NCBI RefSeq assembly: GCF_013409865.1
Contig: NZ_JACCBM010000001.1
Location: 992,001-1,056,000 of the forward strand
Source of the DNA: Herbiconiux flava
GTDB taxonomy: Bacteria > Actinomycetota > Actinomycetes > Actinomycetales > Microbacteriaceae
DNA: 64,000 bases
Direction: 5' to 3'
Made by a program: the position numbers and the translations under genes
Shown here: positions 5,128-29,085 of the stretch, piece by piece
How the letters are laid out: every line of letters starts with the position of its first letter
Position numbering within the stretch: the stretch's first letter is position 1
The notes under the pieces: model-generated
Database searches by the model: none
What the model was told of the DNA's origin: nothing
The model's input: only the letters and a program-made list of their open reading frames with translations

Positions 5128-5625
5128 TCAGCCGCCGAAGAGCTTGCCGAAGAAGCCCTGCTTCTTCGGGGCGTAGCCGGCCGCGGTGAGGGCCTCGATG
5201 AGCGGCGTCTTCACTTCGTCGGTCGTGAACGAGTACCCGTAGGTGTTGCCGACGTGGGTGCCCTGGCGGTCGGTCGACTCGGCCGCCACCGGGGTGGCGC
5301 CGAACTCGAACGAGAACGACTTCTTCCGGCCCGAGAACGTCGAGGTGCCCCCCGAGATGCCGATACCGCCCGGACGAGCCCGCGCGGTCACGTCGGACGA
5401 GGTGTCGGTCTCATGGAAGGTCCAGGTGCCCTCGGCCGGGTCGAGCTCGACCCGCAGCTCGTAGGCCCGGTCGATCAGGCCGGCCGCCGTGAAGGAGGCC
5501 CACTTGATGTCGGCGTACTTCCAGATCGCGCGGAGGCCGTCGGGCTCCGCCGTGTAGACGAAGGGCAGCTCGTCGCTGTTCAGCGCGAGCACGGCGTTCT
5601 GGGCGTCGGCGAGCGGGGCGGCCAT
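5128..5625 (-). CDS. Hypothetical protein, last gene of the T7SS-like operon
   Basis: I do not recognise a family for this 165-residue soluble protein. It has no signal peptide or membrane segment. Its middle reads as beta-rich (DRAYELRVELDPAEGTWTFH and the SGRKKSFSFEFG segment) and it ends in the short amphipathic KKQGFFGKLFGG. The start overlaps the stop of the upstream gene (TGATG), so it is co-translated with the end of the WXG100/EssC cluster. A role as a secretion accessory or substrate-handling factor is suggested only by position. Confidence 0.7.
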   Translation of the reverse strand: MAAPLADAQNAVLALNSDELPFVYTAEPDGLRAIWKYADIKWASFTAAGLIDRAYELRVELDPAEGTWTFHETDTSSDVTARARPGGIGISGGTSTFSGRKKSFSFEFGATPVAAESTDRQGTHVGNTYGYSFTTDEVKTPLIEALTAAGYAPKKQGFFGKLFGG

Positions 5626-6101
5626 CAGACGGTCGTCACCGCGCTCGACTGGATCTCGCGCAGCTCGCCCCAGAGCGACAGCGCCTGCGATCCGGTCGCC
5701 GTGGCCGTGATCTGCACGAGGTCGGCGACGGGCCCGTTCTCGACGACCACGATGCGCACACCCTGCATCAGGGTGCCGACGCGCTCGTCGGGGTAGCTGA
5801 ACTCGATGCGGTAGCCGTCGCGGCCGAGCACCTCCTGAGCCTCGCGACCGCCCTCGACGACGCCCGGCAGGGCCTCGACGCGCGCGGTCACCTCGTCGAT
5901 CGCAGTCTGCAGCGCGTAGCCCGCCGTGAAGCGGGTGATCGCCACCACGACGTTCGGGCGGAATGTGCCGGGCTCGACGGTCTTGCCGGTCGCGAGCACG
6001 GCGCCCGGGGCGGCGAGCGGGGCCCAGTCGTCGGGCACCGTGAGGCCGATCGAGGGGAAGCCGGGAGCGGCGTCACCGGGGAAGGTCAGGGAGTGGGACA
6101 T
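5625..6101 (-). CDS. DcrB/DUF1795-like small protein
   Basis: A 158-residue protein with no clear signal peptide. The reading SLTFPGDAAPGFPSIGLTVP, followed by DDW, and the later strand-rich body resemble the Mog1/PsbP-like fold of the DcrB/DUF1795 family, members of which occur beside WXG100 genes; this assignment is tentative. I start at the ATG at 6101 because AGAAAGG lies 8 nt upstream; a GTG at 6146 overlapping the upstream stop is the alternative. It sits between the long WXG100 protein and the last hypothetical gene, overlapping the latter. A chaperone-like or substrate-linked role is possible but unproven. Confidence 0.55.
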   Translation of the reverse strand: MSHSLTFPGDAAPGFPSIGLTVPDDWAPLAAPGAVLATGKTVEPGTFRPNVVVAITRFTAGYALQTAIDEVTARVEALPGVVEGGREAQEVLGRDGYRIEFSYPDERVGTLMQGVRIVVVENGPVADLVQITATATGSQALSLWGELREIQSSAVTTV

Positions 6102-6142
6102 GGTTCGAGCCTTTCTGAAGTCGGGGAGGAGGGCAAGCCGGG

Positions 6143-7234
6143 TCACAGCCCGAACAGGTTGCCGATCGAGTCGATGGTGTCGGAGGCGTCGATCTCGAAG
6201 TCGAAGCTCACGCCGCCGCCGATGCCGAGGGCGGCTCCGACGTCGATGGTGCCGTTGAAGGTGTCACCGTCGACGCCCACGTCGATGTTCGCGTGACCGC
6301 CGATGCCGGCGTAGACCTCACCGCCGACCGTGGCGGTCGCGCCGGCCACCGACACCGAACCCTCGGCCTCGGCCTTGGCGCCCGCGAAGGCGTCGACACC
6401 GGCGGTCACGCCGATGCTGTCCGGGCCGATCGTGCCGCCGACGGTGGCGTTGGCCTCGGCGCCCGCCATGACGGATGCGCTGCCCTCCGCCTCGGCGAAA
6501 CCGTTCAGTGCCGAGACGGAGCCCTCGGCCTCGGCCTTGGCCCCGGCGAAGCCGCCGACGGACGCCTCACCCGCGAATCCCTCGTCCCATTCGAACGAGC
6601 CCTCGGCGGCGGCGTTGCCCTCGACCCCGACGATCGCGTCGGCCGAGCCCTCGCCGCCGAACGTGTCGTCGCCGAACGAGCCGGAGGTCCCGGCGCCGGC
6701 TCCCCACTGCCACTTCGCGTCGGCGTCGCCGTGCGCGGTGCCGATGCCGATGTCACCGTCGGAGTTCGTGTCGGTGTGCACGCCGGGGAGCATCGTCCAG
6801 GGGCCCTCGTCGTCGTCACCGCGGCCGTCCCCGCCGCCCCCGCCGCCTCCGCCTCCCGCGGAGCCGCCACCATCCGAGCCGCCGCCCCCGCCCGAGCCGC
6901 CGCCGGCCCCGCCCGCGGAGCCGCCGCCGGACCCGCCGGCCCCCGCGCCCCCGCCGATCGAGTCGGTCGATGCCGCGTTCTGCTCGTCGGCGTTCTTCAG
7001 CAGCCCCGTGCTACCGGAGGTGAGCGCGGCCACGGCGGCCTTCAGCTGCGCCGTGTGCGTCCCGTTCCAGTCGGTGCGGAACTGCGACGCATCCGGGCCC
7101 TGCCAGGCCTGCGTCTGATTGACGCTCGAGGTGAGGGTCGTGCCGACCGTCTCGAGCTGCGAGGCGGCCGTGTCGAACTGCTTCGCGAGCGTGCGGAGCT
7201 CGTCGACATCGGCGCCGTAGAAACCACCAGGCAT
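6143..7234 (-). CDS. Long WXG100 protein with Gly-rich linker and A/E/G repeat tail
   Basis: A 363-residue candidate type VII substrate. Residues 1-95 form a WXG100-like helical hairpin: DELRTLAKQFDTAASQLE, the turn WQGPDASQF (a W-x-G motif) and FRTDWNGTHTAQLKAAVAAL. A Gly/Ser linker follows (about 100-145). The C-terminal ~200 residues are low-complexity and beta-like, rich in A, G, E, V and D, with the unit FAGAKAEAEGSVS present twice exactly and degenerate copies between (FAEAEGSASV, VMAGAEANATVGG). There is no signal peptide. The linker and tail look like a cargo domain exported through the WXG100 head. The following gene may be an accessory. The fold of the repeat tail is unknown to me. 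Confidence 0.75.
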   Translation of the reverse strand: MPGGFYGADVDELRTLAKQFDTAASQLETVGTTLTSSVNQTQAWQGPDASQFRTDWNGTHTAQLKAAVAALTSGSTGLLKNADEQNAASTDSIGGGAGAGGSGGGSAGGAGGGSGGGGGSDGGGSAGGGGGGGGGDGRGDDDEGPWTMLPGVHTDTNSDGDIGIGTAHGDADAKWQWGAGAGTSGSFGDDTFGGEGSADAIVGVEGNAAAEGSFEWDEGFAGEASVGGFAGAKAEAEGSVSALNGFAEAEGSASVMAGAEANATVGGTIGPDSIGVTAGVDAFAGAKAEAEGSVSVAGATATVGGEVYAGIGGHANIDVGVDGDTFNGTIDVGAALGIGGGVSFDFEIDASDTIDSIGNLFGL

Positions 7235-7317: not shown

Positions 7318-7584
7318 CTAGGCGTTCGAGGTCGACTCCTGGTCGCTGGCGTTCTTCGACGCCTTCTGCGACGCGTCCTCGAGAGCGGTGATGACCTGCT
7401 TCAGCGCGGCGGTGTGGGTGGTGTTCCACTCGTTGCGGAAGCCCTCCGCGTCCGGACCGGTCCACTGCACGTTCTGCAGTGCGCTGGTCAGCGTGGTCAG
7501 GATCTGCTGCACCTGCTGCGACTGGGTGTTGAGCTGCTTGCTGAGCCCACGAACCTGCTCGACATCGAGACCCCAAACGGCCAT
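7318..7584 (-). CDS. WXG100 family protein (EsxA/EsxB-like)
   Basis: An 88-residue ESAT-6-like protein. It forms a helix-turn-helix hairpin that is usually exported as a dimer by an FtsK/EccC-type ATPase. Seen: N-terminal MAVWGLDVEQVRGLSKQLN, the turn motif VQWTGPDAEGF (W-x-G) and FRNEWNTTHTAALKQVITAL, close in pattern to the longer WXG100 protein encoded next. The start at 7584 is chosen because AAGGAGAG sits 5-6 nt upstream; the ATG at 7599 is next to that ribosome site. The canonical C-terminal YxxxD/E signal is not obvious (the end reads SKNASDQESTSNA). The gene follows eccC after a 118-bp hairpin-rich gap and may be the most abundant product of the operon. Confidence 0.88.
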   Translation of the reverse strand: MAVWGLDVEQVRGLSKQLNTQSQQVQQILTTLTSALQNVQWTGPDAEGFRNEWNTTHTAALKQVITALEDASQKASKNASDQESTSNA

Positions 7585-7599
7585 GATTCTCTCCTTCAT

Positions 7600-7704
7600 C
7601 TCCGCGGTCCGGACTGTCCGGATCCGCTACTTCCTGTGAGTGCTTCTCACAAGGAAGACACTATTGACACCTGTCGCTGACGGCGATGGGGAGAAGTCCC
7701 CATC
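7600..7704 (-). promoter_or_regulatory. Hairpin-rich leader between the FtsK/EssC gene and the WXG100 gene
   Basis: Three inverted repeats fill this gap. GATGGGGA-gaag-TCCCCATC (7685-7704) overlaps the upstream stop codon. An imperfect CTTCCTGTGAG / CTCACAAGGAAG pair lies at 7630-7657. TCCGGAC-T-GTCCGGA (7608-7622) lies just before the ribosome site. A weak internal promoter (TTGTGA-N17-TAGCGG on the minus strand) could be read between them. The arrangement suggests separate transcription or attenuation for the WXG100 genes; this is inference. Confidence 0.5.
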
Positions 7705-10700
7705 AGTCGTCCCTGGTCGCCACCTGCAGCTTCACGACCCGGCCGCCCTGCACGTAGAACCCCCGGCCAGGCGGCAGATCCGCGCGCTTGAACCGGCCGA
7801 GCGAAGTACCCAGAAGAGAGTCGCCGTCGAGGTCGCCGGGCACCAGCAGGAGCCCCCGTTTGGAGTTCTTGAAGGCTCCGCCGAGCGTCCAGGCCGCCGA
7901 CCAGGTCGACGACTCGCTCTCCCCGATCACGAACACGTCGTCCCGCAGCGCCCGCTTCACCAACCGATCCACGTCGGCCTCGGCCGGGCTGCCGTTCAGC
8001 TCGCCGACGTTCTCGACGAACACCGCGAACTGCGTCGGCTTCAGCGTCTCGGCGTCGAGCTGCGCGGTCACGTCGTCGGCGAAGGCCGCGATCTGCGCCG
8101 GGTCGCTCAGCGAGAGGCTCCAGAGCGGCAGCGGCGTGAGGCTCGTCTTGCGCGGCGAGATGTGCACGAGACGGATGCCCGGGTCGGCCCGTCGCAGCGC
8201 CGTCGCGATGGTCGCGAGCGCCGTCGACCGCCCGCTGCCCGCGGTTCCGGCGACGAGCATCGCTCCCGAGGGCGAGATGCCGAGGGCGCCGAGGGTGTCG
8301 TCGCGCACGCCGATCACCGGCTGTCCCGCCGCGACGGCGGGGAGCGTGCTGAGCGGGATGGCGTCACCGAGGGTCTGGATCGGCGGAGCATCCGTCACCC
8401 CCTGCCGGCGCATGGCCTCGGCGAGCTTGGAGATCTCGCGGGACTGGATGGCCACGTTCGAATCGGCCCCGAGCACCGCCATCTGCACCTCGTCGCCGTC
8501 CATCACGCCGCGGCCGGGCGGGGAGACGGCGCTCAGCGTGTCCTTCGGGGCGCCGAGCAGCGCGTAGTCGTCGTCGTTGGCCATGCGCAGCACGAGGCGC
8601 CGCTGGATGGTCGAGCCGAGCGACGCCGGCACCGAGTTCGGCCGGTCGCCCGCCACGACGATGTGCACGCCGACCTGACGGCCGTCGGTGGCGATCTGGG
8701 CGAAGGTGGTGAACCAGGCCGAGTGCCCGCCGAACTCGTACTGCTCCCGGAAGGCGCCGATGCCGTCGACGAGCACCAGGATGCGCGGCTCCTGCGGGGC
8801 GTCGGCGATCCGCCGGTAGTCCCCGATCGATCCCGCGCGCACGGCCGAGTAGCGGATGGAGCGGTCGTCGACCACGTCGCGGAGCCTCCGCAGCAGCCGG
8901 ATCACCCGCTCCTCGTCGTCGCCGGAGATGATCGCGCCGACGTGCGGCAGCTCCTCGAGCATGCTCAGGCCGCTCGAGCCGAAGTCGAGGCCGTAGACGT
9001 GCACCGGGCCGCCGCGCGGCGTGACCGCGGCCGACACGGCGATGGTGCGGAGCGTGGCGCTCTTGCCCGAGCCTCCGGTGCCGAGCACGGCCATGTTGCC
9101 GTCGCGGTCGGGCTCGTAGAACACGGTGGGCTGGCTCTGGCTCGCCGGGTCGTCGATCACGCCGAGGAGCAGCCGCTCATCCGTTCTCGGGTTGGGCAGC
9201 AGCGAGAAGTCGTAGACCGCCGCGAGCTCGTCGAGCCAGGGCTTGCGCGGTTCGGGGATCTTCGCCATCGACGCGGCGTGACGGATGCTCGTCACGAGCC
9301 GCGCGATGTCGGTCGGCCCCTGCTCGACCGACTCGGGCGTCTCCTCGTCCTCGGGCACCTCCCAGGCGGCGCCGGCACCGAAGTCCATCTCGACGAGGTC
9401 GATCCGGGGGCGGGGCGGGGTGCTGGTCGTCCAGCCGCCCGCGTAGCCGGTCTGGAACGGTGCGAGCCGCCCCGGGCCGGTCTTCGCGGCGCCGCGGCCG
9501 GGGATCGACTGGTCGAAGTAGGCGGCCATCGGATCGCCCAGGATGTCGCTGGAGTCGTCGGCGTCGGCCATCCGGAGTGCGATGCGGAGGTTGGTGTTGG
9601 CGCGCAGGTTGTCCTTGATCACGCCGGCCGGGCGCTGCGTGGCGAGGATGAGGTGGAGGCCGAGCGAACGGCCGCGCTGGGCGACGTCGACGACCCCGTC
9701 GACGAACTCGGGCACCTCGTTCACGAGCGCCGCGAACTCGTCGACCACGATCAGGAGGCTCGGCGGGGTGTCGGGGTCGCCCGTCTTCTCGAGCGAGACG
9801 AGGTCCTTCGCCTTCTTGCGGTTGAGCAGGTGCTCGCGGTAGCGCAGCTCGGCGCGGAGGCTCGTCAGCGCGCGGCGCACGAGGTGCGGCGACAGGTCGG
9901 TGACGAGCCCGACGGTGTGCGGCAGGCCGACGCACTCGGCGAAGGCCGCCCCGCCCTTGTAGTCGACGAACAGGAAGGTGGCCCGGTCGGGGCTGTGCGC
10001 CGCTGCCATGCCGAGCACCCACGACTGCAGGAACTCGGACTTGCCGGCGCCCGTGGTGCCGCCGACGAGGGCGTGCGGCCCCTGGTTGCGGATGTCGAGG
10101 TAGAACGGCTCGGTGCCCGAGTGCCCGACCAGCGCGCGCAGCGATCCGGCCTGCTTGCGGCGCACGGGCGGCGACCCGTCGCGGAGGGCGATCGAGTTGC
10201 TCTCGCGCCAGCGGTCGATCACGGCCTCGGGCTCGTCGGCGAGCTCGGAGCCGACGAGCGTCAGGTAGGAGACCTGGCGCGGCAGGTCGGAGTCGTCGTC
10301 GACCGGCGCTCCGACGTCGGTCACCGGCGAGAGCTGGCGGGACAGCCGGTGGGCCGTGTCGGCGTCGACGGTCTCACAGACCAGCGGGAAGGTGTGCTCG
10401 CCGAGGCGCACCTGGCCCGCGGTCGCACCGGCGGCGTCCTGGTCGACGCTGACGAAGCTGCGGCAGGCGGCCGGCAGGGCGGCGATCGAGGGCGCCGACC
10501 AGATCACGTGCACGTTCGCGTCGGCGCCGCGCTCGACGAGCCGGGTGAGGCGGCCGCGGTCCAGCGGTGCGTCGTCCTCGATCACGACGAGGACGGCGGG
10601 GGTGATCGGATGCACGAGCTCGTCCTCGCCGCTCTTGCCGCTGGTGTCGATCGGCCCGCGGGGGGAGGGCGCGCCCTTCGTGCGACGCGAGATGAGGTCC

Positions 10701-12154
10701 TCGAGGCGGGCGAGCAGCGCGGATCCCGAGCCGGGGTTGTCGGCCAGGTGGTCGCCGGCCAGCGGGCTGTGCGGCGAGCTGGTGTGGGGCAGCCACTCCA
10801 GCCACTCCCAGGTGCTCCGCGAGGTGGGGGAGACGACGGCGGCGACGACGAGCTCGGCGGGGGAGTGCAGCCCGACGAGCTGCGTCACGATGCCGCGGGC
10901 GACCCCGTGCCGCTGCTCGGCGGGGCCGGCGACGCCGAGGGCGCCGGCCTTGCGGAACTCGACCACGATCGGCACGCCGTCGATCCGCGAGAAGCGGTCG
11001 GCGGTCTGCTCGACCTGCGCGTAGTACTCGGGCAGGGCGTCGTTCTCGTTCGGGGTGGTCACCACGTCTCGGCTGAGCGAGGTGCCGAGGCCGAGCCGGG
11101 CGGTCAGGAACGACGGATGCTCGGGCCGGTGCGTCCACATCAGCTGACCCAGTCGCTGCACCGCGTCGATCGTCGCGGCCACCGCCGGGGCCTCGGTGAG
11201 CCGCACGGCCCGCTGCACCCGCTGGCGCTCGTGCATGGACGCGACGAAGGCGTCGAGCGACTCGTTGAACTGCTTGATGGCGGCCTTCAGCTGCGCGCGG
11301 GTCTGCAGCTTGTGGTCGAGCCAGGTGCCGATCATCAGGATCGGGCTCAGCGCGATGAAGACGAGGCTCAGCGCGTTGCCGGTCGCGGCGAACAGAATGG
11401 GGCCCATGATCAGCGGGGCGATCAGCGCCACCAGCGGGAAGCGCAGCGACTGGGGCTGCTTCGGCGGGGTGGGGGCCGGGAACTCGGAGCCGGGGTAGCG
11501 CGCGACGACCCGCGGCGAGCGGTTGAACTCGATCACCGGCGTCGACGGCGCGGCGCCGCCGAGGCGCTGCAGCGGCACGACGCAGATCGCGGTGTCGCCC
11601 AGCACGACGACGTCGGCGGAGCTGAGGGTGGTGCGGGCGACCTGCTCGCCGCCCATCAGCAGGCCGTTCGCCGACTTCATGTCGACGATCTCCACCTGCT
11701 CGCCGATGTTGATGCGGGCGTGCCGCTTGGAGACCAGACCGTCGCTCAACCGCACGTCGATGCCGCGCTCGCGGCCGATGTAGCTGGAGCCGAAGGGGAG
11801 CGAGAACTCGGCCCCCGCATCCGGCCCGCTGAGCACCCGGAGCGTCGCCGCCGCCGGGCCGTGGCTGCCGGAGCTGAAGCCGTCGCTGTGCCGGGCGAGC
11901 TCGAGCACGGAGCCGGAGCGCACGCCCGCCTCGATCAGGTTCGAGGCCGGGTCGACCACGCGCTGCTCGCCGCTCGTGCCGGTGACCTGCAGGGTGAGGC
12001 CGGCGGGCACCTGGGCGCGCTGGTACTCGCTCAGCTGCGGGTCGGCGAGGTGGATCGCCTCGGCGATGTCGCCGACGCTCGCCGTGGCGTCGGCGGTGAT
12101 CTGGAGGTTCGACGCCGATCCCCCGGGGCGTCGGAGGGTGGCTTTGATGCGCAT
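7703..12154 (-). CDS. eccC/essC-like: Type VII secretion ATPase: ubiquitin-like + FHA + three FtsK/SpoIIIE domains
   Basis: A 1483-residue motor expected to drive WXG100 export at the inner membrane. Domains in order: a ubiquitin-like region (residues 1-90, ending GVRSGSVLELAR); an FHA domain (~103-195; IGRERGID, LVSKRHARI, KSANGLL); two membrane segments (~240-280); a first ATPase with intact Walker A GGTTGAGKSE (~696) and Walker B LLIVVDEF; a second with GTGGSGKSA (~1023) but LVLVDG in place of a DE motif; a third with GTAGSGRST (~1300), where Lys is Arg, and FAVFVEN. Only domain 1 keeps full catalytic residues, as in known EccC/EssC proteins, where domains 2-3 bind substrate or regulate. 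A fused ubiquitin-like domain may stand in for a separate YukD/EsaB or EccD N-terminus. No other Ecc components are found nearby. Confidence 0.9.
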   Translation of the reverse strand: MRIKATLRRPGGSASNLQITADATASVGDIAEAIHLADPQLSEYQRAQVPAGLTLQVTGTSGEQRVVDPASNLIEAGVRSGSVLELARHSDGFSSGSHGPAAATLRVLSGPDAGAEFSLPFGSSYIGRERGIDVRLSDGLVSKRHARINIGEQVEIVDMKSANGLLMGGEQVARTTLSSADVVVLGDTAICVVPLQRLGGAAPSTPVIEFNRSPRVVARYPGSEFPAPTPPKQPQSLRFPLVALIAPLIMGPILFAATGNALSLVFIALSPILMIGTWLDHKLQTRAQLKAAIKQFNESLDAFVASMHERQRVQRAVRLTEAPAVAATIDAVQRLGQLMWTHRPEHPSFLTARLGLGTSLSRDVVTTPNENDALPEYYAQVEQTADRFSRIDGVPIVVEFRKAGALGVAGPAEQRHGVARGIVTQLVGLHSPAELVVAAVVSPTSRSTWEWLEWLPHTSSPHSPLAGDHLADNPGSGSALLARLEDLISRRTKGAPSPRGPIDTSGKSGEDELVHPITPAVLVVIEDDAPLDRGRLTRLVERGADANVHVIWSAPSIAALPAACRSFVSVDQDAAGATAGQVRLGEHTFPLVCETVDADTAHRLSRQLSPVTDVGAPVDDDSDLPRQVSYLTLVGSELADEPEAVIDRWRESNSIALRDGSPPVRRKQAGSLRALVGHSGTEPFYLDIRNQGPHALVGGTTGAGKSEFLQSWVLGMAAAHSPDRATFLFVDYKGGAAFAECVGLPHTVGLVTDLSPHLVRRALTSLRAELRYREHLLNRKKAKDLVSLEKTGDPDTPPSLLIVVDEFAALVNEVPEFVDGVVDVAQRGRSLGLHLILATQRPAGVIKDNLRANTNLRIALRMADADDSSDILGDPMAAYFDQSIPGRGAAKTGPGRLAPFQTGYAGGWTTSTPPRPRIDLVEMDFGAGAAWEVPEDEETPESVEQGPTDIARLVTSIRHAASMAKIPEPRKPWLDELAAVYDFSLLPNPRTDERLLLGVIDDPASQSQPTVFYEPDRDGNMAVLGTGGSGKSATLRTIAVSAAVTPRGGPVHVYGLDFGSSGLSMLEELPHVGAIISGDDEERVIRLLRRLRDVVDDRSIRYSAVRAGSIGDYRRIADAPQEPRILVLVDGIGAFREQYEFGGHSAWFTTFAQIATDGRQVGVHIVVAGDRPNSVPASLGSTIQRRLVLRMANDDDYALLGAPKDTLSAVSPPGRGVMDGDEVQMAVLGADSNVAIQSREISKLAEAMRRQGVTDAPPIQTLGDAIPLSTLPAVAAGQPVIGVRDDTLGALGISPSGAMLVAGTAGSGRSTALATIATALRRADPGIRLVHISPRKTSLTPLPLWSLSLSDPAQIAAFADDVTAQLDAETLKPTQFAVFVENVGELNGSPAEADVDRLVKRALRDDVFVIGESESSTWSAAWTLGGAFKNSKRGLLLVPGDLDGDSLLGTSLGRFKRADLPPGRGFYVQGGRVVKLQVATRDD

Positions 12155-12160: not shown

Positions 12161-12915
12161 CTACCTGTCGTCGGTGTCGTCGTGGGGCTGGTCGAGCAGC
12201 GGGAGGTCGTTCTTGGTGACGAGGCGCGAGAGCACCGCGTACTCCACGAGCCGCGCCCGGCGATTGGTGGCGAGAGCGCCGACGCCGCCGCGCAGGCCCT
12301 CGACGCCGGTGCGGCTGAGCTTGTCGCAGACGTTGTCGAGCTTGCGGTTGAAGCGGCTGAGCGCCCAACCGAGCCGTTCGGCCGCAAGCTGGCTCGAGGG
12401 GATCTCGCTCGTGCCGGTGCCGTCGCGCTTCAGCATCGGCTCGGCCAGGGCCAGGATGAGCAGCTTCTGCGAGGCGGTGAAGGTGACGGCGCCGACGGTG
12501 GTCGCCCCGCTGCCGTCGGGTACCGGGGTGGAGTCGAAGAAGGTCGGAGTGCTCGTGTGCACGGTGAACTCGTAGCTCGTGGGGCCCGCGGTGAAGACCA
12601 CGGTGGTGAGACCGAAGACGATGGGCATGCGGGCGCCCGGGGCGAGCCAGGCCTGCATGGTGCGGCTGGCGTCGGAGACGGTGGCGCTCAGCCGGGAGCC
12701 GACGTTCGAGAGCCACCACATGCCGTCGACGTTCGCGATCTGCAGGAAGCGGCGGTGCAGGTACTGGTTGTCGTCGATGTCGAGATCGGCGTCGCGGCCG
12801 ATCTCGAACGGCTTCGCCGGGTCGAGGGCGAACCACTCGCCGCAGAACTCGACGTTCGCGTCGGAGCGCGTCGCCGGAGCGGTGGGCGGGGGAGCGGTGG
12901 TCTCGTCGGGGGTGC

Positions 12916-12919
<4 letters not shown>
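12161..12919 (-). CDS. FHA-like protein with C-terminal winged-helix-like region
   Basis: A 252-residue protein between the kinase and the secretion ATPase. Residues ~25-120 resemble an FHA beta-sandwich (FEIGRDADLDIDDNQYLHRR, later WWLSNVG), which would bind a phosphothreonine target of the neighbouring kinase. Residues ~150-240 look like a helical winged-helix module (LLILALAEPMLKRD, SSQLAAERLGWALSRFNRKL, DKLSRTGVEGLRGG). The start at 12919 overlaps the kinase stop as ATGA; an ATG at 12928 is the alternative. It may be an adaptor carrying the kinase signal to the ATPase; a DNA-binding role is also possible. The fold assignments are by eye. Confidence 0.65.
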
Positions 12920-14522
<1,603 letters not shown>

Positions 14523-14526
<4 letters not shown>

Positions 14527-16019: not shown

Positions 16020-16020
16020 G

Positions 16021-20704: not shown

Positions 20705-22002
20705 CAGCTGTTTGCCCTCCGGAGTGCGCGCGGCAGGTCGGTCAGATCGCCGACGGTCAGCAGGGTGATGTCCCCGAGCGTGCGCAGCGACATCCGCTCG
20801 CCTGGCCGCGAAGCGATCGCGATCACGCGCACCCCGAGCGGGATGTGCATCGACGACGCCTGGATCTGGGTGGGAGTCACGCCGCTGCCGAACAGCAGGA
20901 ACGCCACCGACGCCTGCGGCACCGCGGTGCCGGTGGTCTTGGCGAGCTGCACGACGGTCTCGCGGCTGGTCTCGTTCTGCTCGACGGCCGAGAGCTCGTC
21001 GAGCAGGCGCCGGCCGGTCTCGGCATGCAGGGTGCTCCCGGGGGTGAGCACGGTGATCTCCCGCTCCTCCATCAGCGCCTGCACGGCGAGCGAGCCGCAG
21101 ACCGAGACCGCGAGCTCGAACTCCTCGTCGCCTCGCTCGCCGTCGGCGTAGTCGGCGCGGTTCGTCGAGAGCGCGATGGCGAGGTGCGAGCGTCGGGTCT
21201 CCTCGAACTGGCGCACCATCAGCTTGCCCGTGCGGGCGGAGGTCTTCCAGTGGATGTACCGCCGGTCATCCCCCGGCACGTACTCGCGCAGCGCGTGGAA
21301 CGAGACGTCGTTGTCCGACAGCACCCGGCTCTCGACGCCCTCGAGGTCGCGCAGGAATCCCGACGACGAGCCGCCGAGCGAGACGGTCCTCGGATGCACG
21401 AACAGGTCGACCGGGTCGGTCCACCGCAGCTCCCGCCGCAGCAGGCCCAGCGGATCGCCGCGAACCGATCGCACGGGCCCGACCACGATCACGGCACGAC
21501 GGCCGGTCGGGATGCCGAACAGCTCGTCGTGCTCGGCCTCCGGAGCGAGGCGCGGCAGCTGGAAGGATGCGAAGGCCGAGCCGACGGGCAGCTCGATGCG
21601 GGCGGGCAGGAGGGTGCGGGCCGAGGTGTTCGAGACGGCGAGCCGGCCGACGGCCCGCTCACCCACCACCACGCGGGTGAGGGCGAGGTCGAGCCGCACC
21701 GCGTAGGCCGAGCGCCCCACGGCGAAGCCGATCGCGATCAGCAGCGCGGCGAGCAGCACGAAGCCGATCACCAGCAGCTCCCGCCAGCCCAGCGCCAGGC
21801 CGGCGACGATCGCGACGACCGTCACGCCGAGCACGGCCCAGCCGAACCCCGACACGGTGCCGAGCACCGGGCCGACGGCGGGCGCGACGGCGGACCCGGC
21901 GCGCCGTGCCGTCGTCGACACCGCGGGCCAGCCCGTCTCCGTCACCCAGCGCGCGGGCGCCGATCCGCGGATCGCGCGCGCGCCCTCCCCCGCCCGGCTC
22001 AT
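20704..22002 (-). CDS. DUF58 domain membrane protein
   Basis: A 432-residue protein with two adjacent membrane helices (~45-90) and a cytoplasmic or von Willebrand-like domain carrying the DUF58 signature YVPGDDRRYIHWKTSARTG, followed by FEE (~285-310). DUF58 proteins accompany MoxR AAA+ ATPases and are thought to be their assembly clients or adaptors. The stop overlaps the transglutaminase start and the start overlaps the MoxR stop, so the trio is translationally coupled. The exact function is unknown. Confidence 0.9.
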   Translation of the reverse strand: MSRAGEGARAIRGSAPARWVTETGWPAVSTTARRAGSAVAPAVGPVLGTVSGFGWAVLGVTVVAIVAGLALGWRELLVIGFVLLAALLIAIGFAVGRSAYAVRLDLALTRVVVGERAVGRLAVSNTSARTLLPARIELPVGSAFASFQLPRLAPEAEHDELFGIPTGRRAVIVVGPVRSVRGDPLGLLRRELRWTDPVDLFVHPRTVSLGGSSSGFLRDLEGVESRVLSDNDVSFHALREYVPGDDRRYIHWKTSARTGKLMVRQFEETRRSHLAIALSTNRADYADGERGDEEFELAVSVCGSLAVQALMEEREITVLTPGSTLHAETGRRLLDELSAVEQNETSRETVVQLAKTTGTAVPQASVAFLLFGSGVTPTQIQASSMHIPLGVRVIAIASRPGERMSLRTLGDITLLTVGDLTDLPRALRRANS

Positions 22003-22973
22003 GCAGCGGGTTGCCTCGACTGCGGTGCGGCGACGTCGGCCAGCACGCGGGCGAGCACGCCCTCGGCCGTCGCCCCCGAGAACTCGGCTTCGGCGTCGAG
22101 CACGAAGCGGTGGGTCCAGACGGGCCCGGCGAGCTCCTTGATGTCGTCGGGCAGCACGAAGTGCCGGCCCTGCGAGGCCGCCCAGACCTTGGCGGCGCGG
22201 ATCAGCGCCATCGCGCCGCGCACCGAGACGCCGAGGCGCGACTCGGGGGCGCTGCGGGTCTCCTCGGCGAGCTGCGCGGTGTAGCGCAGGATGGCCGGGT
22301 CGACGTGCACGGTCGCCGCGAGGTCGGCCATGTCGGCGACCGCGGAGGTGGTGATCACGGGCGAGAGGCCCGAGGAGGGGTTGCGGTTGGCGGAACCGGC
22401 GAGGATCTGCTCGGCCGACGCGAGGTCGGGGTAGCCGATCGACGTCTTGATCAGGAAGCGGTCGAGCTGCGCCTCGGGCAGCCGGTAGGTGCCCGCCTGC
22501 TCGATCGGGTTCTGGGTCGCGATCACGAGGAAGGGGCGGCCGACCTCGTGGGCGACGCCGTCGACCGACACGCGGGACTCCTCCATCACCTCGAGCAGCG
22601 CCGACTGGGTCTTCGGGCTGGCACGGTTGATCTCGTCGGCGAGCACGATCGAGGCGAAGATCGGGCCCTTGTGGAAGTCGAACGTGCGGGTGTCCTGGTC
22701 GTAGATCGTCACGCCGGTGACGTCGGAGGGCAGCAGGTCGGGCGTGAACTGGATGCGCTGGCTGGTGCCCTGCACGGTCGCCGCGATCGCCTTCGCGAGG
22801 CTCGTCTTGCCGGTGCCCGGGGCGTCCTCGAGCAGCACGTGGCCCTCGGCGATCATCGCCATCAGGGCCAGGCGCACCACGTGGTCCTTGCCCAGCACGG
22901 CCAGGCCGACGTTCTGGGTCAGCCGGTCGAAGGTGCCGGCGAACCAGGTCGCCTGCTCGGGGGTCATCGTCAT
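21999..22973 (-). CDS. MoxR-family AAA+ ATPase
   Basis: A 324-residue AAA+ chaperone-like ATPase. It shows Walker A in LLEDAPGTGKTSLAKAIA, Walker B and sensor in VLADEINRASPKTQSALLEV, sensor 1 in FLVIATQNPIE, and the MoxR lid (LPEAQLDRFLI). It would remodel or assemble the DUF58/transglutaminase membrane complex or the secretion machinery encoded downstream. The start has AGAGGAA directly upstream; the gap to the giant surface protein is only 22 bp, so they share a transcript. Confidence 0.93.
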   Translation of the reverse strand: MTMTPEQATWFAGTFDRLTQNVGLAVLGKDHVVRLALMAMIAEGHVLLEDAPGTGKTSLAKAIAATVQGTSQRIQFTPDLLPSDVTGVTIYDQDTRTFDFHKGPIFASIVLADEINRASPKTQSALLEVMEESRVSVDGVAHEVGRPFLVIATQNPIEQAGTYRLPEAQLDRFLIKTSIGYPDLASAEQILAGSANRNPSSGLSPVITTSAVADMADLAATVHVDPAILRYTAQLAEETRSAPESRLGVSVRGAMALIRAAKVWAASQGRHFVLPDDIKELAGPVWTHRFVLDAEAEFSGATAEGVLARVLADVAAPQSRQPAA

Positions 22974-22995: not shown

Positions 22996-25900
22996 TCATC
23001 GTCTGACCTTCATCGGCGTGCCCTCGCAGTTCATGCGGGAGGCCTGGTTCTCGAGCGAGTAGGCGCCTGTGTCCTGCGTGTACCAGTTGAGCTGCTTCGA
23101 GCCGTTGCCGTTGCCGTCGACCGGGATGGTGGTGCTGAGGTACTCGCCCCCGGTCCACTCGCAGAACACGCTGCTCTGGCCGAGGAAGTTCTCGACCGTG
23201 ATCTTCATGCGCACACAGGGCGGCCCGTTGACCAGGCCCTCGCCGTCGCAGCTCTTCCACGACGACAGGAAGGCGCCCTTGGGGGGAGCCGAGCCGCTCG
23301 ACGCGCTCGTCGAGTTCTCGGAGCTCTGCCCGGCCGAGTCCTTCACCACGACGCGGATGGAGTGCTTCTCGCTGTAGGCGTCTCCGACGGTCACCGTGCC
23401 GTTGCCGGCGTTCGAGTTGAGGTTCCCGTCGACGTAGACCTCCACCGATGTGATGGGGCGTCCGTTGCCGGCCGGAGCGTTCCAGGACAGCGTCACCGAC
23501 TTCGCGTTGCCGTTCGCCGACACCGAGGGCTGCGCGAGCGGGCCGAACGGCACTCCGGCGTTCGATTCGCCGCTCGCCGGGCCCTCGTAGTTCGTCCCGT
23601 CGAGCGGGGTCGTCGCCCGCACCCGCACCGTGTAGCTCGTGCCGTTCTGCAGTCCGGTGACCTGGTAGGCCTGGGCGTTCCCGGGGATCGGGGTCCAGCC
23701 GCCGCCGTTGACGCTGTACTGGTAGATCAGCTCGCCCTGGGAGGCGCCGTTGCCCGAGGCGCTGGCGCCGCGGTCGAAGGTGACGCTGCCGTCGCCCTCC
23801 GAGGTGATCGTCGCAGGACCGGCTGCTCCCGGCGGAGTGAAGCTCCGGCGGGGGGCCGAGGCCGCCGAGGGAGCGCCCTCGCCCGCCTTGTTGGTCGCGG
23901 TCACCGAGAAGGTGTAGTCGCTCTCCGAGGTGTCGAGCCGCACGGTCTGCTCGGTGGCGGTGAGCCCGGGCAGGCTGTCGACCGGGCTGCCGCCGCGGAG
24001 GATGGTCAGCGTGTACTTGAGGTTGTCGTCGCCGTTGCCCGAGGGCTTGCTCCAAGCAACCCGCATCTGCGACTGCCCGCCGACGGGGTCGAGCCGGGTC
24101 GTGCTCGGCTGACCCGGGGCCTCCGGCTTTCCGGCCGGGATCTCGGTCGCCGAGAAGGCGCTGAAGTCGGAGGGCTCGGGGGCCTTGTTCACGGCCTGCA
24201 CCCGCACCTGGTAGGCGGTGCCGTTCTCGAGGCCCTCCCAGACGATCGAGTTGCCCGTCACGCCGTAGCGCGAGGGGGCTCCGCGCGCCGGGGCGGGGGA
24301 GATCTCGAGGTTGAACGACTGCACCGCCGAGCCGGGGGTCGGGGGCGTCACCCAGCTCACCTCGAGGCTCTTGTCGCCGAACTTCAGGGTCGGCGGCTGG
24401 GGCTGATCGGGACGCGCGTCCGGTCGGGCCACGGCCGAGGAGGGCGACGGGTCTGAGGTGCCCACCGAGTTCGTCGCCGTGACGGTGAAGGTGTACTCGA
24501 CGTCGTTGGTGAGACCGTCGAGCGTGCACGTCGTCGACGCGCAGGTCTTCGTGTAGCCCTGGGGGCTCGTCACGGTGTAGCTCGTGATCTCGGCGCCGTT
24601 GTTCACCGGGGACGCCCAGTTCAGCACGACCGTGCGGTCCTGGATGCTCGTGACCGTCGGCGTCGCGGGGGCGTCGGGGCGGCCCTGTACGGTGAGCTGG
24701 ATGCGCCCGTCTGCTTGGCGTGACGGGTCGCCCGTGGCGTCGATGATGCCGTAGCGCACGACCATGGTGCCCACGAAGTCGGCCGCCGGGGTCACGGAGA
24801 CGTCCGAGCCCGAGAAGTCGGCGTTGCCGGTGCCCGTCTCGATGGCGACCTCGGTGATCCTCAGGGGGGTGTCGGGGAACGGATTGAAGTCGTTCGCCAG
24901 TACCGGCACCGAGACCGTCTGGCCCTGGTTGGCCTGCGGCACGATGTCGTCCGTGGCCGACGGGGGCGTGCGGGTGGTTGCGAGCACCGAGATCTGCACG
25001 GCCCCGCGCACCGGCGTGTTGACGCCGTCGGAGACCTCGATGTCGAGGGTGGAGGGGTTCAGCGGGGCATCGGCATCCGCCCGGGCCACGAGCGTCGAGC
25101 CGTCGAGGCGCACCGAGACGCCGGCCGGAGCGTCGCCGACGATCGCGAAGGTCAGGGCCTCGAGCTCGCCCTCGTCGGGGTCCTCCGCGGCGCCGCGCAG
25201 GTCGATCGACTGCTCGTCCTCGCCCGCCGCGACGGTGAGCTCGGCGCCCTTGAAGGTGGGCGGGGTGTTGTAGTCCGAGACGACGGTGATGGGGATGACG
25301 AGGGTCGCCGTGCGGCCGTCCGGGTCGTCGGGGCCCGTGCCGTCGGTGACCTCGAAGCTCAGGGCGTCGGGGCCGTCGTAGCGCGGCTTCGGCGTGTAGC
25401 GGAGGGTGTCGGCATCGGCGAGGAGGTCGTCGCCGTTCGAGTTCGCGGCCCTCACGGTGTCGGCCTCGGTGATGCGCACCGACTTGCCCTCGCCGACCAG
25501 CACGTAGTCCGAGAGCTCGACGTCGACCGTTTGGCCGTCGTTCACCACGAGCGGCTCGATGCCCGGCCGCAGCACGGGCGGCAGCGTGTCGCTGCCCGGC
25601 ACGTTCACGAAGGCCGAGGCGGTCAGGCCGTCCTGGTCGGTGACGGTGTAGGTGATGATCTGCGAGGTCGGCAGCAGGGTGATCTGCAGGTTGCCGCTCG
25701 CGAGCGGGGTGGCGGCGGGGTCGGAGCTCGTGACCGTGAGGCCCTCGATCGTGCCGTCGGGGTCGTCGTCGTTCTCGCGCACGTTCACGTCGACGGTCTC
25801 GCGGTCGAGCATGTCGGCGACGGGCACCTGGTCGTCACGGGCGATGGGCGAGGCGAGCGGAGCATCCGGACTCACCTGCACCAGCAGCGTGCCGGCCGCC

Positions 25901-28900
25901 GCCGCACCCCAGCGGTCGACGATCGTGTACTGCAGCGTGTAGTCGCCGGCCTCACCCGGGGCGGTGACGAGCACGCGGCCGCCCTCGACCGAGGCGGTCA
26001 CGCCGTCGGGCACGGTCAGGCCCTCGGAGCGGATGGCGATGGGGTCGCCGTCGGGGTCGTTGTCGTTCTCCATCACGTCGACCGCGACCGTGCGGCCGGG
26101 GCGGGCCGAGATGGCGTCCTTCACCGCGTACGGCGGCTGGTTCGACTCGCTCGCGGGGATGATGCCGACGAGCACGGAGGCCGTGGCCGAGGCGCCGAGC
26201 CGGTCGCGCACGGTGTATGTGAACGTGTCGGTCCCGGATGCGTCGGGGTACGCCTCGTAGACGAGCCACGCCTCCCCGACCTCGGTGATGCGCCCCTTGC
26301 CCGGCGCCGAGCTCTGGCCCACGAGCTCGACCGAGTCGCCGTCGGGGTCGATGCCGTCGAGCGGGATCGGGATGCGCACGGTCGTGCCCTGCAGCGCCCG
26401 GATCGTGACGTCCTGCGGTCGCGGCGGCGCGTTGGTGCCGTCGTCGGGGCCGACGATGCGGATGGTGATGTAGCCGGCGTCCTTCTGGCCCTGCGAGTCG
26501 ACGGCCTCGTAGGTGGCGTAGACGGTCTTGGGCTCGGGCCCGGCGTTGAAGCGCACGGTGTCGCCGGCCACGAAGATGCTGCCGTCGGCCGGGTCGACCA
26601 CGGGGTCGATCAGCGTGGGCGAGAGCGAGAGCGTGTCGCCGTTCGGATGGGTGTCGTTCGCGAGCACCGGGATCGTCACGATGTCGCCGACCCGCACCGT
26701 GACGTCGTCGTCCTCCGCGTTCGGCGGGAGCAGCCGGTCGGGGGCGGGGATCGGCGTGACGAACACCTCGCCGCGTGAGGAGGCCGCCCCGTTCGACACC
26801 GTGTAGGTGATGGTGATCGGGTCGGTGAGCCCGCGGTCGGTGATGCGCAGGATCTCGTGCTCGAGCACCTCGACGCTCACGCCCGCCTCGGCCGGCACCT
26901 GCACCGACTGCACGGCGAGGATGCCGCCGTTCGGGTCGGTGTCGTTCGACAGCACGTTGACGAGCGTGGTGCCGCCGTTCGGCAGCTGGGCCGTGTCGCG
27001 CACGGCGATCGGCGGGTCGGTGCTGTCGGTGACGGGCAGCACGGTGACGCGCACGAGGCCCTCGGCGGTCTTCGGGCCGTCGGAGACCAGGTACTGCACG
27101 TAGTAGTCACCCGGGGTGCTGCTGGTGAAGTCGAAGGTGCCGGTGGTGTAGTCGGGCTGCAGCGCGGCGCCGGGGGTCTCGTTCACCTTCGCCAGGCGGA
27201 GCGGTGCTCCCGACGGGCTGAGGTCGTTGTCCATGGGCGCCACGGTCACGCGCTCGTCGACGGTCGTGACGACCGTGTCGCCGTTGGTCACCGGCGCGAG
27301 GCTGCCGGGGTCGCGCACCTGGAAGCGCACGGTGCCCTCGGTCTCGGTGCGGCCGTCGGAGACGACGACCGTCACCTCCTTCGGGCCGGTGTCCTGGTCG
27401 ATGCTGGTGAAGCTGATCTGGCCGTCGGGTCGGTACTGCACCTGGTCGTCGGTGCCGGTCGAGGCGCCGACGACGTAGAGGTCGTCGCCGTCGGGGTCGA
27501 TGAAGTCGGGCAGCACGTTGTGGTTGACGCTCGCCCCGAGCTCGACCAGCACGTCGGTGACGCGCTTCTGCTTCGGCGGGGCGTTCTCCTCGTCGCCGCG
27601 CACGCTGAGCGAGACGGTGGCGGTGTCGCTGCCGCCGCGGCCGTCGTCGACGGTGTACCCGAAGCTCGCGCTGCCCGAGGCGTCGGGCGAGACGACGATC
27701 TGCAGGGCCGCTCCGTTCAGGATGCGCTGCACCTCGCCGATCCCGGGCTGGGAGCCCTCGATCTTCGCGGTGAGCATGTCGCCGTCGGGGTCGAGGTCGT
27801 TGTCGAGCACGGGCAGCACCACGGTGCGGCCGGGCCGCACGCCGAAGGCGTCGTCCTCGGCCGTCGGAGGAGTGTTCTCCTCGGAGCGGTCGGGCAGCAG
27901 CACCTGGAGTTCGTCCTCGGTGCTGTCCTCCTCCTCGTCGGAGTCGCTCTGCTCGGGCGGCGGGGCGATGTCGTCCCAGTTGTCGACCTTCTTCATGTCC
28001 TGGTTCACCAGGAACACGACGCCGGTCGACACGTCGTTCAGCACCACGACGTCGCGGTTCACCCGGAAGCGGAGGTCGGCGTTCGCCGCCAGGCCGTCGA
28101 TCTGATCCTCGACGTCGTTCGCGTCGCCCGAGCAGTCGCGGAGGAAGGCCCCCGATCCGGACCAGGCGGCGTACGCGCATCCGTTCAGGAAGACCGGCGC
28201 GGCCGGTGTGCCGGGTTCGCCCCCGGCGGGGATCACGGTGGCCTCGCCGCCGTCGAGGGGCTGCCGGATGAGCGAGGTCTTCGTCGCGACCAGCACGTCG
28301 GAGGAGGCCGGCCCGGTGGGCTGCACGACACCGCCCTCGGCGTCGGGCAGCTCGACCACGGAGCCGCCGGGCAGGTGCAGGCTTCCGGAGGAGGCGTCGA
28401 AGACGACGGCCTGGTCGCCGACGGTGGTCAGGGTGAGGCGCGCGCCCTCCTCGACCTCGGGGAAGTCGGTGCTGGCCGGCTCGACGGGGAGGCCGCCGTT
28501 CTCGTCGCGGTCGTACTCGAGCAGCTTGCCGGCGGAGGTCGACAGCGCGTGCACGTTGCCCGCGGCGTCGGCCACGGCTGCGCCGGCGCCGCCGAGCTCG
28601 CCGAGCGGCTCGTCGGGGTCGAGCTGCAGGCCCGCGGCGTTCGACGAGGGGCCGGCCCAGAGCTCTCCGGTCTCGCGGTCGAGCACCGTGAGCGTCGGGC
28701 CTCCGAGTGACACCGATGACTCGGGAGGGAGGATGAGGGGCGCCTCGAGCGCCATGGTGACCGGGTTGACCGGGGTGAGGGAGGAGCCCGTGGTGTCGAG
28801 CATCAGCACCGTCTCGTCGCGCTGCAGCACGTCGAACTCGGTGGAGGAGGTGCGGAGGCCCCCGTCGATCACCTGCGCGGGGTGGTTGAGGTGCCCGAGC

Positions 28901-29085
28901 AGCAGCCCGGAGGGCTTCGTCACCCAGACACCGCCGTCGTTGAGGTCGACGTCGGCCGTCTCGATGCCCTCGTAGAGGAACGCCATCGTGGTCACGCCGA
29001 TCGCCAGAGCGGCGATGGTGGCCACCGATGCCGTCGTCGCCTTGCGACGGCGGATCGCCTCGAACAGCCTCACACGGGTCTCCAC
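22996..29085 (-). CDS. Giant membrane-tethered cadherin-like/Fn3 repeat protein
   Basis: A 2029-residue protein that opens the operon. A basic N-terminus (EAIRRRKATT) and one membrane helix (~18-38) suggest N-in, C-out anchoring. Residues ~40-400 are beta-rich and unassigned. About ten Ig/cadherin-like repeats follow, marked by N-D-x-D-P-x-G loops (LDNDLDPDGD, LSNDTDPNGG, LANDTHPNGD, MENDNDPDGD, RENDDDPDGT), which may bind Ca2+. Five Fn3 domains come next (~1500-1920), and a C-terminal ~100-residue domain with four Cys. There is no LPXTG motif. The start is GTG. It probably spans the wall as a fibre, adhesin or scaffold for the co-encoded secretion system; the role is inferred from position. 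Confidence 0.88.
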   Translation of the reverse strand: METRVRLFEAIRRRKATTASVATIAALAIGVTTMAFLYEGIETADVDLNDGGVWVTKPSGLLLGHLNHPAQVIDGGLRTSSTEFDVLQRDETVLMLDTTGSSLTPVNPVTMALEAPLILPPESSVSLGGPTLTVLDRETGELWAGPSSNAAGLQLDPDEPLGELGGAGAAVADAAGNVHALSTSAGKLLEYDRDENGGLPVEPASTDFPEVEEGARLTLTTVGDQAVVFDASSGSLHLPGGSVVELPDAEGGVVQPTGPASSDVLVATKTSLIRQPLDGGEATVIPAGGEPGTPAAPVFLNGCAYAAWSGSGAFLRDCSGDANDVEDQIDGLAANADLRFRVNRDVVVLNDVSTGVVFLVNQDMKKVDNWDDIAPPPEQSDSDEEEDSTEDELQVLLPDRSEENTPPTAEDDAFGVRPGRTVVLPVLDNDLDPDGDMLTAKIEGSQPGIGEVQRILNGAALQIVVSPDASGSASFGYTVDDGRGGSDTATVSLSVRGDEENAPPKQKRVTDVLVELGASVNHNVLPDFIDPDGDDLYVVGASTGTDDQVQYRPDGQISFTSIDQDTGPKEVTVVVSDGRTETEGTVRFQVRDPGSLAPVTNGDTVVTTVDERVTVAPMDNDLSPSGAPLRLAKVNETPGAALQPDYTTGTFDFTSSTPGDYYVQYLVSDGPKTAEGLVRVTVLPVTDSTDPPIAVRDTAQLPNGGTTLVNVLSNDTDPNGGILAVQSVQVPAEAGVSVEVLEHEILRITDRGLTDPITITYTVSNGAASSRGEVFVTPIPAPDRLLPPNAEDDDVTVRVGDIVTIPVLANDTHPNGDTLSLSPTLIDPVVDPADGSIFVAGDTVRFNAGPEPKTVYATYEAVDSQGQKDAGYITIRIVGPDDGTNAPPRPQDVTIRALQGTTVRIPIPLDGIDPDGDSVELVGQSSAPGKGRITEVGEAWLVYEAYPDASGTDTFTYTVRDRLGASATASVLVGIIPASESNQPPYAVKDAISARPGRTVAVDVMENDNDPDGDPIAIRSEGLTVPDGVTASVEGGRVLVTAPGEAGDYTLQYTIVDRWGAAAAGTLLVQVSPDAPLASPIARDDQVPVADMLDRETVDVNVRENDDDPDGTIEGLTVTSSDPAATPLASGNLQITLLPTSQIITYTVTDQDGLTASAFVNVPGSDTLPPVLRPGIEPLVVNDGQTVDVELSDYVLVGEGKSVRITEADTVRAANSNGDDLLADADTLRYTPKPRYDGPDALSFEVTDGTGPDDPDGRTATLVIPITVVSDYNTPPTFKGAELTVAAGEDEQSIDLRGAAEDPDEGELEALTFAIVGDAPAGVSVRLDGSTLVARADADAPLNPSTLDIEVSDGVNTPVRGAVQISVLATTRTPPSATDDIVPQANQGQTVSVPVLANDFNPFPDTPLRITEVAIETGTGNADFSGSDVSVTPAADFVGTMVVRYGIIDATGDPSRQADGRIQLTVQGRPDAPATPTVTSIQDRTVVLNWASPVNNGAEITSYTVTSPQGYTKTCASTTCTLDGLTNDVEYTFTVTATNSVGTSDPSPSSAVARPDARPDQPQPPTLKFGDKSLEVSWVTPPTPGSAVQSFNLEISPAPARGAPSRYGVTGNSIVWEGLENGTAYQVRVQAVNKAPEPSDFSAFSATEIPAGKPEAPGQPSTTRLDPVGGQSQMRVAWSKPSGNGDDNLKYTLTILRGGSPVDSLPGLTATEQTVRLDTSESDYTFSVTATNKAGEGAPSAASAPRRSFTPPGAAGPATITSEGDGSVTFDRGASASGNGASQGELIYQYSVNGGGWTPIPGNAQAYQVTGLQNGTSYTVRVRATTPLDGTNYEGPASGESNAGVPFGPLAQPSVSANGNAKSVTLSWNAPAGNGRPITSVEVYVDGNLNSNAGNGTVTVGDAYSEKHSIRVVVKDSAGQSSENSTSASSGSAPPKGAFLSSWKSCDGEGLVNGPPCVRMKITVENFLGQSSVFCEWTGGEYLSTTIPVDGNGNGSKQLNWYTQDTGAYSLENQASRMNCEGTPMKVRR

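Follow-up and report, generated by a model that had tools for sequence, protein, structure and literature searches.

The window analysed here, i.e., the whole stretch of 64,000 nucleotides of Herbiconiux flava DNA, carries a block of 14 genes (5128-29085), all on the minus strand, in which the motor ATPase of a type VII secretion system (T7SS) adjoins a gene set resembling the PFNA operon of Bifidobacterium. Judged from its sequence, the block is real and widely conserved and, as a T7SS variant joined to PFNA, it is undescribed among the papers searched. We put somewhat better than even odds (a probability of about 0.57) on the block encoding a distinct actinobacterial T7SS variant, in which an EssC-like motor would be wired to a PFNA envelope module by a phospho-threonine (pThr) switch; both the secretion of WXG100 proteins and its phospho-gating are what we infer from these genes. 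In the order of transcription, they encode a giant surface protein, a MoxR ATPase, a DUF58 protein, a TgpA-like protein, an RDD-FHA protein, a PP2C phosphatase, an FHA protein, a Ser/Thr kinase, an adaptor, the motor, two WXG100-type proteins, an LpqN-domain protein and a 165-aa protein, and most gene ends overlap or touch. A previous interpretation of the same DNA, hereafter the sequence-only reading, had delimited this block; the list of open reading frames (ORFs) and Pfam agree with its genes and coordinates, and Pfam backs the identities that it gave to the giant, MoxR, DUF58, TgpA-like, RDD/FHA, PP2C, FHA, kinase and motor proteins.

The neighbourhoods of related motors carry much of the evidence. 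They were drawn from a panel of 60 of the 87 genomes of the order with a motor of ~42% identity or more (H. flava itself among the 87, some motors being fragmentary) and from a named set consisting of the best 80 of 587 confirmed matches, the two sharing three motors. The module was scored as present where at least three of seven genes (MoxR, DUF58, TgpA, PP2C, FHA, kinase and adaptor) lay upstream of the motor on the same strand; 10 of the 80 named loci, with <9 kb upstream, were dropped from this count, and the panel loci extend only ~2.7 kb past the motor. On this basis, 127 distinct motors had sufficient upstream sequence (9 kb or more), and 102 of them had the module there; before removal of three duplicates, the figures were 105/130. 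Among 20 distant motors that served as a control, a single one had it. The genes for TgpA, PP2C, FHA, kinase and adaptor are all present in 84 motor loci (duplicates not collapsed), and 83 of these keep their order into the motor. The gene neighbourhood is therefore conserved, but its two halves also occur apart. Carriers of the block belong to the Microbacteriaceae, Micrococcaceae, Promicromonosporaceae, Propionibacteriaceae and Nocardioidaceae, among others, and a 1.35-Mb plasmid of Arthrobacter sp. StoSoilB13 (L223) bears the complete series of genes from giant to motor; in its record, the reading frames of TgpA and of the motor are both split, either genuinely or by assembly error. Of the named records among the best 80 of 587 matches, that of Herbiconiux gentiana comes nearest, with a motor 97% identical; there, a HipA-like/helix-turn-helix pair (L122:17043-18469, by eye) separates the block from an MFS transporter gene, and the corresponding spacing in the window is only ~113 bp. 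A contig labelled as Bacillota, from the record of Sporosarcina beigongshangi (L137), holds an actinobacterial copy of the block and probably stems from a mislabelled or contaminated assembly.

The layout of the block is compact. The MoxR and DUF58 genes share a 4-bp overlap, and the kinase and adaptor genes also overlap in the window. By eye, the probable true starts of the RDD-FHA and FHA genes lie at ~18188 and ~16019, so that most junctions would be overlapping or nearly touching. Scans for promoters and terminators at both ends of the block returned nothing.

The phospho-threonine circuit of this set is intact at its key residues. The kinase (12916-14526) consists of a catalytic domain (Pfam Pkinase), a linker, a transmembrane (TM) segment at residues 400-431 and a small ecto-domain; its HRDxKxxN and DFG motifs are intact in 91/91 rows, and the metal-site residues of the phosphatase (16021-16893; PP2C_2, with an acidic-Thr tail) in 92/92. 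Duplicates were left in for these counts, and a row was admitted only if it reached the score limit, set at 400 for TgpA, 380 for the kinase, 250 for PP2C, 200 each for RDD and the adaptor, 80 for FHA and 1700 for the motor. The FHA protein, which has a long linker (14523-16121), retains its pThr-binding G-R (91/91), S (91/91) and H (89/91). In the motor, the FHA domain (residues 106-194; 11573-11839) has a pThr pocket formed by R128, S142, H145 and N163, which shows R in 138, S in 138, H in 141 and N in 136 of 141 rows, and is intact by all four residues in 135 of 140 loci. Among the separate FHA proteins, pThr-reading residues are confined to the one just described and to the RDD-FHA protein (16890-18395), in which a Zn-ribbon and an RDD domain with three hydrophobic segments precede the FHA domain. 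The sequence-only reading had proposed a complete circuit with three FHA proteins; kinase, phosphatase, motor FHA domain and two FHA proteins do keep their key residues, but the site of the third, the adaptor, is non-canonical. This protein of 255 aa (12161-12928) has no match in Pfam or NCBIfam and is an FHA protein by predicted fold, with H and F where the readers carry S and H. Its C-terminal domain, at first guessed by eye to be a winged helix, contains only helices in the predicted model, and that guess was dropped.

Candidate targets of the kinase are suggested by an acidic-Thr-[RVIL] motif, which occurs in 89/91 kinase linkers, 87/91 FHA linkers, 55/92 RDD-FHA linkers and 79/91 PP2C tails, each count being above all 200 shuffles. 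With one row per cluster of motors at 65% identity, the enrichment gives z values of 3.0-5.4.

The motor itself (7703-12154) is a protein of 1483 aa with three FtsK_SpoIIIE ATPase domains and the FHA domain by Pfam, and with a hydrophobic stretch (residues 236-280) that probably forms two TM segments. Among solved structures, its profile matches 4nh0 best (E 5.9e-107), an entry labelled FtsK/SpoIIIE that we take to be the EccC of Thermomonospora; solved YukB (9qks) and EccC5 (7b9f) were matched at E 1.1e-105 and 2.8e-85, respectively. Against the NCBIfam models of EssC, EccCa and EccCb, the motor fell short of each cut-off (526 of 778, 364 of 509 and 296 of 347, respectively). A quick tree was built from 60 motors, including 36 of the 141 window-type rows, and several of its distant rows are long-branched; the 36 rows stand on one side of a branch with SH-aLRT 100, outside which lie a mycobacterial EccC, a Streptomyces EccC, an Enterococcus EssC and the motor of a T7SSd-like locus (L112, genome G082). 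The profile matches to YukB and EccC5 thus uphold the earlier assignment to the EssC/EccC-type ATPases, and the tree separates the motor from the rows of T7SSa, T7SSb and the T7SSd-like locus. The latter holds a WXG100 gene, a kinase, a 1798-aa Ig-type giant and the ATPase, for which Pfam did not list an FHA domain among the best 25 of 28 families shown, and is not a sure T7SSd. The genome of H. flava encodes one T7SS-type motor; its other FtsK-type matches are a 974-aa frame, which we read as the DNA translocase, and two weak ones under cut-off. An ARAGORN tRNA call at 12035-12127 (+), antisense over the motor gene, is probably false; neither this call nor another at 50941-51030 (+) was confirmed by Rfam, and a tRNA at 55139-55229 was.

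Ahead of its FHA domain, the motor probably carries a fused ubiquitin-like (beta-grasp) domain (residues 1-90; 11885-12154), as indicated by the predicted order of its secondary structure (strand-strand-helix-strands; pLDDT 84-94 by block) and by weak profile matches, including YukD matches below threshold in 3/30 rows. By eye, N-termini of this kind stand ahead of the TM region in further actinobacterial motors, including that of L112, and fusion may be the reason why a separate ubiquitin-like gene went undetected in T7SSd. Fold searches with a model of the EccC N-terminus listed FHA chains; the ubiquitin-like part was not compared alone, so they provide no evidence against it.

Upstream of the phosphorylation genes lies the envelope half of the block. 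The giant (22996-29085; 2029 aa) is composed of Big_9/cadherin-like repeats and four fn3 domains and is the counterpart of the PFNA fn3 protein. Its description as a tethered protein is consistent with the hydropathy scan, in which a single hydrophobic segment at the N-terminus (residues 18-39) would anchor it, none being seen at the C-terminus. FN3 profile matches were obtained in 33/60 panel and 9/80 named loci, the flanks of which often stop short of the giant. The genes that follow encode a MoxR AAA+ ATPase (21999-22973; AAA_3, PFNA aaa-atp), a DUF58 membrane protein (20704-22002; PFNA duf58) and the TgpA-like membrane protein (18185-20704; TgpA_N and Transglut_core, PFNA tgm). An active transglutaminase or TgpA displays the motif G-x-C-x-x-[FY]-A. 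In the TgpA-like protein, this place is taken by GDDEQYS (residues 524-530; 19115-19135), with D526 at the canonical position of the catalytic Cys according to the alignment. Across 108 aligned rows (the window and 107 loci), that column never contains Cys: D occupies it in 85 rows, E in 18, Q in 4 and S in 1, inside GDxEQ[YF]A, and the flanking columns hold G in 108, E in 107 and Q in 107 rows; the catalytic His is present in 72. The Cys column was fixed by aligning a canonical TgpA of the same genome (L216), which bears Cys and His at these columns. Catalytic Cys is likewise absent from the TgpA of all 11 loci examined in a Bifidobacteriaceae-like family (f4), whose three active-site columns hold S first, then a residue other than His, and lastly Y or H. 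By alignment, the PFNA-type 'transglutaminase' is a pseudoenzyme that has lost its catalytic Cys, which would correct the enzyme label it bears; the natural reading would be a binding or scaffold role.

The components that usually accompany a T7SS motor were sought in the same genome. The sequence-only reading had recognised no EccB, EccD, EccE or mycosin gene. EccB and YukC/EssB gave no match in the whole genome (15/60 genomes of the class and a B. subtilis control, respectively, were positive), and mycosin is absent from the block, but EccD has partial matches in the genome, at 25.3 and 22.9 bits, well under a cut-off of 94.95 that is exceeded in G017 and G298. As for EccE, no block ORF matched it in Pfam at E<=0.1, and no genome-wide search was made. 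A mycosin-like protease is encoded on the same contig but ~2.2 Mb away, at 3.25 Mb (L215, about 3247846-3248745), and scores 262.7 bits for a cut-off of 278.75; this subtilase has a C-terminal hydrophobic segment, and an enolase gene (by eye) lies in the same stretch. Across 297 genomes of the order, such a protease occurs in 33/87 with the motor and 110/210 without it (E 1e-50, with up to six candidates scored in each genome), and with no positive association it was ruled out as a component of the system. A canonical ESX (T7SSa) or Ess (T7SSb) was ruled out as well, by the absence of EccB/EssB, the merely partial EccD matches and the sub-cut-off motor scores.

Downstream of the motor, the genes at 7318-7599 (93 aa) and 6143-7234 (363 aa, a WXG100-type N-terminus followed by a Gly/Ala-rich tail) encode the presumptive cargo. 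Both retain W-x-G, and relatives are found downstream in most loci; their earlier designation as WXG100 proteins is nonetheless softened by model scores that lie below the curated cut-offs, at 26.5 and 18.8 bits in Pfam (cut-off 27.3) and at 34.6 and 22.8 in NCBIfam (cut-off 44.85). WXG100-type ORFs were recognised in 101 of 140 related loci, and 181 of the 185 ORFs lie downstream of the motor on the same strand, W-x-G being held by 145. A third WXG100-type gene, of 340 aa (L214:4760-5782), is located elsewhere in the genome, far from any T7SS motor, and its product is a possible cargo encoded in trans. The block ends with an LpqN-domain protein (5625-6146; Pfam 32.2 bits, cut-off 22.4), in which no signal peptide is evident by eye and which we would guess to be a cytosolic chaperone of the cargo, and with the 165-aa protein (5128-5625), which Pfam and NCBIfam leave without a family and which has a relative in 1/80 loci.

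Several observations weigh against the proposed variant. None of the seven module genes lies upstream of 24 of the 127 distinct motors, and the loci are related, so the counts are not independent. Co-occurrence of PFNA and motor was judged from neighbourhoods and from one family-level search, in which 24/61 genomes of f4 had a PFNA-type TgpA at E 1e-10, some by weak partial matches. Of 11 f4 loci, nine show the run kinase-fn3-MoxR-DUF58-TgpA (one other has no MoxR match and one is ended by a contig edge), and PP2C follows in six; no motor adjoins any of the 11 within the stretches examined. Likewise, another giant-MoxR-DUF58-TgpA-FHA set in H. flava (L217, 2402000-2412000) is motor-less, its TgpA core also being devoid of Cys (GDPEQYA), and two motors of Mycobacteriaceae and one of Rhodococcus (L161, L163 and L156) have no module in the flanks examined. 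The halves are separable, which counters the view of an obligate single unit. The same three motors have the whole pThr pocket ruined, a point in favour of the variant, yet they form one clade and amount to one event; moreover, 29 motors with an intact pocket have no module, two with a changed N163 retain it, and the association of pocket with module falls short of significance (p = 0.08). The Thr motif of the thinned kinase set (22/24) was equalled by one or more of 500 shuffles, and the motif also exceeds shuffles in DUF58 (z 3.9) and in the kinase ecto-domain (z 2.5). For the motor N-terminus, the best profile match among solved sequences is a redesigned ubiquitin at E only 0.024, and its alignment by hhalign to three EccD N-termini is weak (E 0.031, probability 1.6%). 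Finally, WXG100 proteins went unrecognised in 39/140 loci, many of them of Arthrobacter; of these 39, 7 extend < ~1.2 kb past the motor, and a pattern search for hidden ones in the 39 found none.

Separability lends itself to another explanation, namely that two independent modules share one operon: PFNA would serve signalling and surface display, the motor and WXG100 proteins would form a separate exporter, and the kinase would regulate the surface rather than secretion. The PFNA sets without an adjoining motor (the 11 f4 loci and the second copy in H. flava) and the motors without adjoining PFNA (Mycobacteriales, several Microbacteriaceae) speak for it, but we regard it as somewhat unlikely in view of the gene order kept up to the motor, the overlap of kinase and adaptor genes, and the motor's own pThr-reading FHA domain, intact in nearly all loci. 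In another locus (L114, G260), a distant relative takes the place of the usual T7SS motor after PFNA-type genes and a few others, possibly as a motor replacement.

It appears quite improbable that the block is simply a T7SSd (or T7SSe) with extra neighbours. The common set of WXG100, FHA-bearing EssC-like ATPase, transmembrane kinase and Ig-type giant invites this comparison (PMC11217815), and L112 brings together a WXG100 gene, a kinase, a giant and an ATPase; however, the window motor is outside the branch holding L112, itself only T7SSd-like, DUF58, MoxR and transglutaminase do not occur in the main text of PMC11217815, and the PFNA genes of L112's genome form a separate locus, the T7SSd-like motor lying ~31 kb from them in G082 and, by coordinates, in G138 of the same genus. 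That the motor serves a cargo other than WXG100 proteins, e.g., by assembling the giant at the surface, seems very improbable indeed: it would fit the loci devoid of recognised WXG100 and the Pro-rich, TM-ended protein of secreted type that occupies the WXG100 position after the motor in four Arthrobacter-group loci (L124, L128, L136 and L159), but not the WXG100-type ORFs found downstream of the motor in most loci nor the third such gene elsewhere in the genome.

If the block is the phospho-switched T7SS variant favoured here, the ecto-domain of the kinase would respond to the envelope or to a neighbour, and the kinase would autophosphorylate. Its targets would be acidic-Thr-[RVIL] sites, both those of its own linker and those of three partners, namely the FHA and RDD-FHA proteins (in their linkers) and PP2C (in its tail). 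The motor FHA domain and the two FHA proteins would dock on these sites, upon which an export complex would assemble or open, to be reset by PP2C. The motor, with its probable ubiquitin-like fusion in place of a separate EsaB/YukD, would export the WXG100-type proteins; MoxR and DUF58 would build or reshape two envelope components, the pseudo-transglutaminase in the membrane and the giant Big/Fn3 protein, and these two may act as a scaffold, contact sensor or outer path rather than as a cross-linking enzyme. In its boldest form, which we find unlikely as a whole, PFNA and motor would constitute one phospho-gated, contact-sensing exporter, in which the motor FHA domain directly reads the state of the kinase and MoxR/DUF58 use the pseudo-transglutaminase and the giant fibre to build the envelope path; bifidobacterial PFNA would then be a motor-less relic or precursor, and the ubiquitin-like part that T7SSd is reported to lack would turn up fused to the motor. 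Such a variant, if real, would answer how a T7SS without EccB, EccD and EssB is switched and anchored, link bifidobacterial PFNA signalling with the T7SS subtypes and suggest why a separate ubiquitin-like gene had not been detected in T7SSd. Carriers include the soil bacteria Herbiconiux, Arthrobacter and Cellulosimicrobium; hence, the system is open to study outside pathogens.

The sequence-only reading knew of no characterised example of this set, and the exact combination was indeed not found among open-licence PMC papers, but both halves have published relatives (PMC8430577; PMC11217815). The PFNA operon of Bifidobacterium comprises pkb2, fn3, aaa-atp, duf58 and tgm, to which some species add prpC, a hypothetical gene and fha (PMC8430577; PMC6803598; PMC12067865); Pkb2 phosphorylates the PFNA MoxR (PMC8430577), and the operon is currently read as a receptor for host signals. 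FtsK and WXG do not occur in the main texts of these three papers, and no publication linking PFNA to T7SS subtypes was found among open-licence PMC papers. The window shares with PFNA the protein families, the order fn3-MoxR-DUF58-tgm, a kinase, a phosphatase and an FHA protein within the unit, and a tgm without catalytic Cys, as in the PFNA-type loci examined. On the other hand, those loci have no adjoining motor or WXG100, of which the window has both; the kinase gene comes first in PFNA and after the FHA gene in the window; and the window adds the RDD-FHA protein and the adaptor.

T7SSd and T7SSe were named in 2024 (Garrett, Higginson, Palmer), after a survey started by BLASTp from a Brevibacillus EssC; they possess a kinase, an FHA-bearing EssC-like ATPase with a conserved pThr site (section 9), WXG100 and an Ig-type giant, T7SSe also having a PPM phosphatase, an FHA protein and a separate ubiquitin-like protein, the last of which T7SSd is reported to lack (PMC11217815). 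The window matches both in its EssC-like ATPase with FHA, transmembrane kinase, WXG100 and giant Ig-type protein, and matches T7SSe in its phosphatase and FHA protein, although Pfam recognises FHA alone in the latter at E<=0.1, TseJ of T7SSe being DUF6382-FHA. It differs from both in a ubiquitin-like part that is probably fused to the motor; in the tree, which did not include the published TsdC accessions, the motor stands apart from the T7SSd-like L112. In T7SSb, the FHA domains have no pThr site (PMC11217815, section 9), whereas that of the window motor is intact. T7SSa (ESX) and T7SSb (Ess) have in common with the window a tandem FtsK-type ATPase motor and WXG100 proteins, but the genome of H. 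flava has neither EccB nor EssB and no convincing EccD. The threonine-phosphorylation pathway of type VI secretion systems relies on a kinase, a phosphatase and an FHA protein. The case of Agrobacterium is cited in section 16 of PMC11217815. The parallel with the window is functional, a transmembrane kinase and an FHA reader standing beside a secretion machine in both; the apparatus is unrelated, and in the window a reader is also built into the motor itself.

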